Below are positions 1,517-1,699 of a stretch of 14,627 nucleotides of DNA, piece after piece. A model generated the notes under the pieces. The model did not search any database, was not told where the DNA came from, and saw only the letters and a program-made list of their open reading frames with translations. The DNA comes from Desulfobacterales bacterium. Its GTDB lineage: Bacteria > Desulfobacterota > Desulfobacteria > Desulfobacterales > JAUWMJ01. Each line of letters opens with the position of its first letter. Position 1 is the stretch's first letter. Where the stretch lies: contig JAUWMJ010000023.1 of the NCBI GenBank assembly GCA_030613225.1, positions 1 through 14,627 on the forward strand. The letters run 5' to 3'. Position numbers and translations under genes: made by a program.

Positions 1517-1699
1517 TCAAATCCTGTCGCATTGAATATTTGCCAGCAGCGTTTCCAGTGCGTCATCCATCTGGTCAAGCACCTTTTCAGGGGGATATTC
1601 GGCACCGCATGACCTGCAGCACAAAAGTACCTGTTTTCACCCTTTTTTCACGTGCAGTTCTCCGCTACACGCCCTGCATTTCAATCTACATTGATTCAT
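1517..1699 (-). CDS. Small dual-CxxC selenoprotein with in-frame UGA (Sec)
   Basis: Read on the minus strand from ATG at 1699, the frame has 60 codons and ends at TGA 1519-1517. It contains one internal TGA at 1639-1637, codon 21, in the context HVKKG-U-KQVLL. Both sides look like real protein. C8-RA-C11 lies before the UGA, C28-RS-C31 followed by GAEY lies after it, and an acidic helical tail ends in CDRI. The two CxxC pairs resemble a small zinc-ribbon or redox fold. A SECIS-like hairpin follows the UGA. I recall an NCBI family named 'dual CXXC motif small (seleno)protein' that fits this length and pattern; I could not check it. A GTG at 1705, better spaced from AAAGGGA, is an alternative start. 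The gene is coupled to the AEC transporter. Function unknown; a metal-binding or thiol-redox role is inferred. Confidence 0.85.
1602..1622 (-). promoter_or_regulatory. Putative bacterial SECIS hairpin
   Basis: After the UGA (1639-1637) come 14 bases, then GTGCTGCA (1622-1615), a loop GGTCA (1614-1610) and TGCGGTGC (1609-1602). All eight positions pair, three of them as G-U wobbles, and the stem extends by three more pairs below a single mismatch. The loop starts with GGU, as in the E. coli fdhF SECIS, and lies 22 bases after the UGA, within the spacing known for bacterial SECIS elements. This supports readthrough as selenocysteine rather than a broken gene. Confidence 0.75.

Follow-up and report, generated by a model that had tools for sequence, protein, structure and literature searches.

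A Selenoprotein Gene of the Dual-CxxC NF041197 Family in a Desulfobacterales Genome: Evidence for Selenocysteine in a Predicted Small Zinc Ribbon

The stretch of DNA analyzed here, 14,627 nucleotides (nt) of contig JAUWMJ010000023.1 (assembly GCA_030613225.1; hereafter “the window”), belongs to a Desulfobacterales bacterium with relatives among the sulfate reducers of Desulfobacterota. Positions 1517..1699 of its minus strand carry a gene for a protein of 60 amino acids (aa) with an in-frame TGA at codon 21, and the evidence supports it well as a genuine selenoprotein gene of the known NF041197 (CxxC_Se_CxxC, OS_HP3) family. On sequence evidence, UGA 21 is very probably decoded as selenocysteine (Sec), since the residues found at this column in homologues, the selection acting on the gene, a hairpin resembling a selenocysteine insertion sequence (SECIS), and the presence of selA, selD and tRNA-Sec in relatives all support it. 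Sec decoding combined with a zinc-ribbon fold is held with high confidence. An earlier note on this DNA, made from its letters alone, had proposed an unannotated selenoprotein gene, and the column restricted to TGA and Cys, the selection after the UGA, the hairpin and the Sec genes of relatives bear that proposal out.

The Gene and Its Family

The gene was delimited by frame reading, profile match and selection. Positions 1699-1517 (-), with TGA given as U, translate as MNQCRLKCRACSGELHVKKGUKQVLLCCRSCGAEYPPEKVLDQMDDALETLLANIQCDRI, followed by a TGA stop; the start is ambiguous by two codons, as an in-frame GTG just 5′ of the ATG possibly places it 6 nt upstream. Translation and alignment locate the first CxxC (residues 8-11) at 1667..1678 (-) and the second (residues 28-31) at 1607..1618 (-), the Cys codons of the latter belonging to the stem of the hairpin as well. 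Between them lies the in-frame TGA, at 1637..1639 (-), identified as a Sec codon by comparison (frame, codon-21 column and selection), whereas a predicted helix (residues 37-53) and the C-terminal CDRI occupy 1520..1591 (-), according to the structure model and the alignment. Coordinates, length and CxxC-U-CxxC order had all been described correctly in the earlier note, whose helical tail corresponds to the predicted helix.

With U given as C, the protein matches NCBIfam NF041197, the “dual CXXC motif small (seleno)protein” family with which a comparison had been suggested, at 74.8 bits (E 4.3e-21; curated cut-off 40) over profile positions 1-53 of 53. The columns of C8, C11, U21, C28 and C31 are invariant (Sec as C) across 57 aligned sequences. 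The family is widespread in the phylum that the search covered, that of a metagenome-assembled genome named Desulfovibrio sp. (L001): among its 395 genomes, 112 have a match at E<=0.001 and 87 exceed the cut-off, while none of 14 control genomes matches.

The novelty of the gene is limited, because its family has already been curated and published. NF041197 has two table entries in PMC13188914, “Dual CXXC motif small protein (hypothetical protein OS_HP3)” with RxU and “Hypothetical protein DW” with GxU; OS_HP3 is also listed in a table of PMC9312934, which credits Zhang and Gladyshev (2007), and PMC12013277 gives OS_HP3 of Desulfosarcina widdelii as the sole known selenoprotein that deep-Sep missed, DW being predicted there. 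The window protein is of the same kind as OS_HP3, with Sec between two CxxC, and differs in being a new sequence with an auxin efflux carrier (AEC) family transporter encoded next to it. Literature searches returned no functional study of the NF041197/OS_HP3 family by title. Beyond the published passages on the family, the additions offered here are a link to YfgJ, two hairpin registers and the AEC/truA context, which were not each the subject of a dedicated literature search.

Besides the group of the window (subfamily A), a paralogous subfamily B (GxU, “ARVRCLTCG”) occurs in the same phylum (L092-L103, L105-L107 and L109-L111; e.g., L096:6900-7082), several genomes carrying both. Its members likewise have Sec between two CxxC (Cys in 1 of 20), and all 20 match NF041197 at E<=0.01 (hhalign 97.6% over 50 columns); unlike subfamily A, they are devoid of the DR[IL] tail. 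Cys-only members with the tail IIYD in place of DR[IL] were also observed (L014-L020, L022, L024, L025, L030, L032, L091), several of them directly 3′ of a pyrE-like gene (named by eye).

Probable Selenocysteine at Codon 21

By hand count the family search gave 144 matches, from which 111 loci were fetched and read, the 33 left out being weaker. After exclusion of L023, L088 and L090 (cut, partial or broken), 108 genes plus that of the window make up the 109 compared, L041 being counted in subfamily A. Codon 21 is TGA in 83 of them, a Cys codon (TGC or TGT) in 26 and any other codon in none, which answers the search for Cys or UGA at this position that had been suggested as a check; the exchange of TGA and Cys among homologues, by which bacterial selenoproteins are recognized, thus holds in this set. 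In L088 (genome G371) and L001/L090 (genome G001) the in-frame match is restricted to the second part, as in broken or misassembled copies.

A further comparison covered 58 genomes related to G352, which is itself among the two closest by SelB (73%) of 12 compared. Matches were found in 43 of the 58, 39 over the cut-off, and in 38 of these 39 the match is full and contains one TGA; in G371 it is partial and stops short of the Sec column. The stop column serves here as the test of the residue, as the list of relatives that includes L132 was obtained with U-bearing sequences only and cannot serve for that purpose.

L132, the closest locus, retains the TGA and shares 82.7% DNA identity with the window over 388 bp. 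In the 39 codons after the TGA the two differ by 9 synonymous and 4 nonsynonymous changes (nonsynonymous rate dN 0.045, synonymous rate dS 0.495), and purifying selection is seen on both sides, with dN/dS of about 0.18 over 13 codons before and about 0.09 over 39 codons after the TGA. Over 60 pairs, which are related and not independent, differences 3′ of the TGA number 458, 294 and 916 at the first, second and third codon positions, with a third-position excess.

These data bear on a first alternative, that UGA 21 is a true stop, so that the gene would be decayed or a leader of 20 codons, and the downstream part would not be translated with it. Gene callers can read the locus in this way, as two predicted proteins (P0012 and P0013) consist of the second halves of L067 and L049, respectively. 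Selection on both sides of the TGA, the third-position excess downstream of it, and a column occupied by Cys in 26 intact relatives and by TGA in the others make this alternative very improbable.

Twelve predicted proteins match the family profile: eight with Cys at the column, the two second halves just mentioned, and two with Trp. One of the latter, P0002, is a 60-aa protein, 75% identical and with W at codon 21; the other, P0011, shows W at the position where genome locus L074, to which it is otherwise identical, has TGA. Most simply, a gene caller would have translated TGA as Trp in both, a choice suggested by the identity of P0011 and L074 elsewhere, as judged from the protein records of P0002 and P0011. 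Such proteins are a trap for tests of the Sec/Cys column. The earlier note's statement that standard gene calling would lose the gene agrees with these predictions, in which TGA forms appear only as a second half or with Trp and eight of the twelve found are Cys forms; they show a route by which a 60-codon selenoprotein gene escapes annotation.

The Trp residues of P0002 and P0011 would also fit a second alternative, in which codon reassignment or near-cognate suppression places another residue, Trp, at UGA 21. This too is very improbable: P0011 suggests a choice of the gene caller, TGG is found at codon 21 in 0 of 109 genes against 26 Cys codons, and TGA is also the normal stop of the gene in both the window and L132.

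A SECIS-Like Hairpin Downstream of the UGA

Hairpin scoring, gene comparison and published model constraints identify a SECIS-like hairpin at 1602..1622 (-), with an 8-bp stem and a loop GGUCA beginning 22 nt after the UGA. The bacterial SECIS (bSECIS) model, as given in a passage of PMC13188914, has a loop of 3-9 nt with G within its first two positions, a stem of 4-16 bp and a distance of 16-37 nt from the UGA; loop, stem and spacing of the window hairpin all lie within these limits. The median energy of the GG/GU-loop hairpin is -10.0 kcal/mol in the 83 TGA genes (also the value of the window) vs. -0.35 in the 26 Cys genes (p 2.7e-11). Synonymous recodings are outdone at p<=0.05 by the hairpins of 41 of the 83 TGA genes and of 2 of the 26 Cys genes, but the window itself reaches only p 0.11; moreover, the stem is partly built from two Cys codons that the Cys genes have too.

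Two registers are distinguished, as 48 of the 64 subfamily-A TGA genes have the hairpin in the register of the window and 16 in one about 6 nt earlier. The earlier register preserves its pairs in 88-100%, changes occurring on both sides; these percentages lean toward pairing because each gene was assigned to the register with the better pairing. The expected loop positions hold GGU in 40 of the 64 TGA genes of subfamily A and 12 of the 19 of subfamily B, and in none of 25 A-type Cys genes. The window hairpin and the SECIS of E. coli fdhF, a different gene whose sequence was taken from the E. coli K-12 record, have UGCAGGUC in common, which is present in 12 of the 83 TGA genes and in none of the 26 Cys genes. 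GGUC begins 18 nt after the UGA in fdhF and 22 nt after it in the window, the fdhF loop thus lying 4 nt nearer the UGA. We propose that UGA 21 would be decoded by SelB and tRNA-Sec, directed by this hairpin just downstream.

Selenocysteine Machinery

The window contains selB at 3933-5843 (+). The earlier note had placed it 2.2 kb from the gene; its presence stands, and its closeness does not hold as a meaningful link. No selB match at E<=1e-60 was found in any of 175 family loci (overlapping, and many of them short), nor, in a fair count, at any of the 94 distinct sites with >=4.5 kb of upstream-side flank (70/81 and 24/34). On the other side of the machinery, tRNA-Sec exceeds the cut-off in 354 of the 395 phylum genomes; its model is not fully specific, because 5 of the 14 controls exceed the cut-off as well and weaker matches occur in all 395. 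TGA forms are rarer where the tRNA-Sec match is weak (1 of 45 vs. 87 of 350 genomes, Fisher p 1.8e-4), the 45 genomes having been hand-picked at a best E >1e-8, with 41 of them under the family cut-off; a stricter line gives 5 of 53 vs. 83 of 342 (p 0.013). The 88 TGA-bearing genomes of these counts are defined by the stop column of the search, weak unread matches included. In all five genomes near the window by SelB, selA and selD exceed their cut-offs and tRNA-Sec matches are strong; the best selD match in those five itself contains one TGA.

Predicted Zinc-Ribbon Fold and Possible Function

A structure model built with the 57 sequences reaches a mean predicted local distance difference test (pLDDT) score of 68.6, and 79-80 over residues 11-30, with strands at 14-19 and 24-28 and the helix at 37-53; residue 21 falls in the inter-strand turn, because the two strands flank it. 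Pfam gives a sub-threshold zinc-ribbon match (LysW, E 0.076), and Foldseek and VIA-align return weak matches only, among which are RNA polymerase ribbons and ZifS, a zinc-finger protein. The zinc ribbon suggested in the earlier note is likely: the model backs it with modest confidence, and Pfam adds weak matches to zinc ribbons.

A relative of this arrangement is the double zinc ribbon YfgJ (PF07191) of E. coli. PF07191 does not match the window protein, a single ribbon, at E<=1, and gives weak matches (E<=0.1) to 43 of the 57 family members. The spacing C-x2-C-x9-C/U-x6-C is identical in the second ribbon of E. coli YfgJ and in the window family, and the Sec column aligns with YfgJ Cys47 (hhalign probability 83.7, E 8e-6, 25 columns), an alignment spanning part of one ribbon. 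Cys47 is invariant in 20 of 20 aligned homologues; in the 120 listed of 432 matches, a mainly enterobacterial sample, its column is Cys in 113, Gly in one and off-pattern in six. The family profile also matches PDB entries 2jrp (“putative cytoplasmic protein”, E 1e-4) and 2jne (YfgJ, E 0.01). YfgJ differs in having two ribbons, Gly-His at the position of the family's last Cys and Cys in place of Sec, and in being devoid of the helix tail. Through this aligned Cys, the part played by the residue could be tested in an E. coli relative.

In the model, the two CxxC knuckles probably bind one zinc, with Sec-21 at the turn of the hairpin between them. We infer that the selenol, replacing a conserved Cys, would be exposed and redox-active or nucleophilic rather than bound to the zinc, and that the protein may be a small thiol/selenol redox or electrophile-reacting adaptor. 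A redox-active selenol as the working part is a serious possibility, somewhat short of an even chance. In another reading the protein would handle selenium or metal, as a chaperone or sensor in which Sec joins the knuckle Cys as ligand or selenium-binding group. Four invariant knuckle Cys with an invariant Cys/Sec column in the 57 aligned sequences, and a weak profile match to HypA, a nickel protein (residues 68-100), are consistent with it, whereas the modelled Sec is at the hairpin turn, in a zinc ribbon the end away from the knuckles, Cys-only lineages exist, and neither selB (at the 94 sites with enough flank) nor any constant partner gene accompanies the family; we regard this reading as rather unlikely.

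Gene Neighbourhood

The gene is followed by one for an AEC family transporter (auxin efflux carrier, PF03547; 307 aa) at 590..1513 (-), identified by Pfam and its open reading frame. The selenoprotein stop (1519-1517) precedes a GTG (1513) by 3 nt and an ATG (1510) by 6 nt, either of them a possible start of the transporter, a spacing that the earlier note had described as a stop coupled to the next gene; here and in the relatives the transporter start was taken as the first ATG, GTG or TTG of the frame and is unproven.

The context was compared in 39 loci (the window, 34 loci of relatives, and L033, L035, L036 and L041), several of which end near the gene; of the 39 over-cut-off genomes related to G352, G187, G233 and G371 are not among them. 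When an AEC gene no more than 100 nt away, or truA no more than 350 nt away, is counted as the next gene, one or the other follows in 25 of the 39, window included: AEC directly and on the same strand in 11, with truA after it in 7 of these 11, and truA directly next to the selenoprotein gene in 14 further loci. In 7 of the 11 AEC loci, again including the window, 2-6 nt separate the selenoprotein stop from the earliest candidate start of the transporter. Upstream, argJ (19 genomes) and a pseudouridine synthase gene (18) are found, divergent in the loci listed. Across the phylum-wide set, L035 is the one locus with the AEC transporter next, and neighbors vary.

The gene would thus be positioned for co-translation with the AEC transporter here, and with AEC and/or TruA in relatives. 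A functional tie to the transporter is tentative and on balance doubtful, as close spacing speaks of position only. More speculative still, and improbable at present, is a putative selenium-gated coupling, in which ribosomes would reach the selenoprotein stop, a few bases before the start of AEC (or TruA in relatives), only if Sec-tRNA lets them pass UGA 21; it draws support from the transporter start lying so near the stop in those seven loci. If true, selenium supply would set the synthesis of the downstream gene, and the small protein would act as a selenium-sensing leader as well as a redox zinc ribbon.

The same neighbors allow the view that the protein is an adaptor zinc ribbon for nucleic acids or the RNA machinery, with Sec as a redox switch at the ribbon tip. 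The truA gene next in 14 loci and after AEC in 7 more, argJ upstream, the many RNA polymerase ribbons among the weak fold matches, and paralogues that precede a dnaX-like gene (named by eye) in some genomes speak for it; yet the fold matches are weak, zinc ribbons are generic and neighbors vary between lineages, so that we give this adaptor role a low probability, comparable to that of selenium or metal handling.

Upstream of the gene, a terminator-like hairpin with a T-run at 1732..1766 (-), which the window shares with its closest relative alone, is probably the terminator of vapBC. The VapBC-like pair (PIN domain PF01850 and PF07704) lies at 2102-2751 (-); 39 nt separate such a pair from the conserved terminator-hairpin block in the closest relative, L144, and 314 bases (1788-2101) do so in the window. 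Other repeats were observed farther away: a long imperfect inverted repeat at 277-386, where an HD-domain fragment ends, with 47-nt arms that are 83% complementary and separated by 16 nt, and a 60-bp stretch at 6429-6488 with an 82% identical copy in L144 (3560-3501), a dispersed repeat that is perhaps of the repetitive extragenic palindromic (REP) type. Finally, an inverted repeat at 13914-14052 (29-nt arms, 86% complementary) overlaps the start of a short frame (109 aa, 14017-14346) for a Y1_Tnp transposase of IS200-like type.
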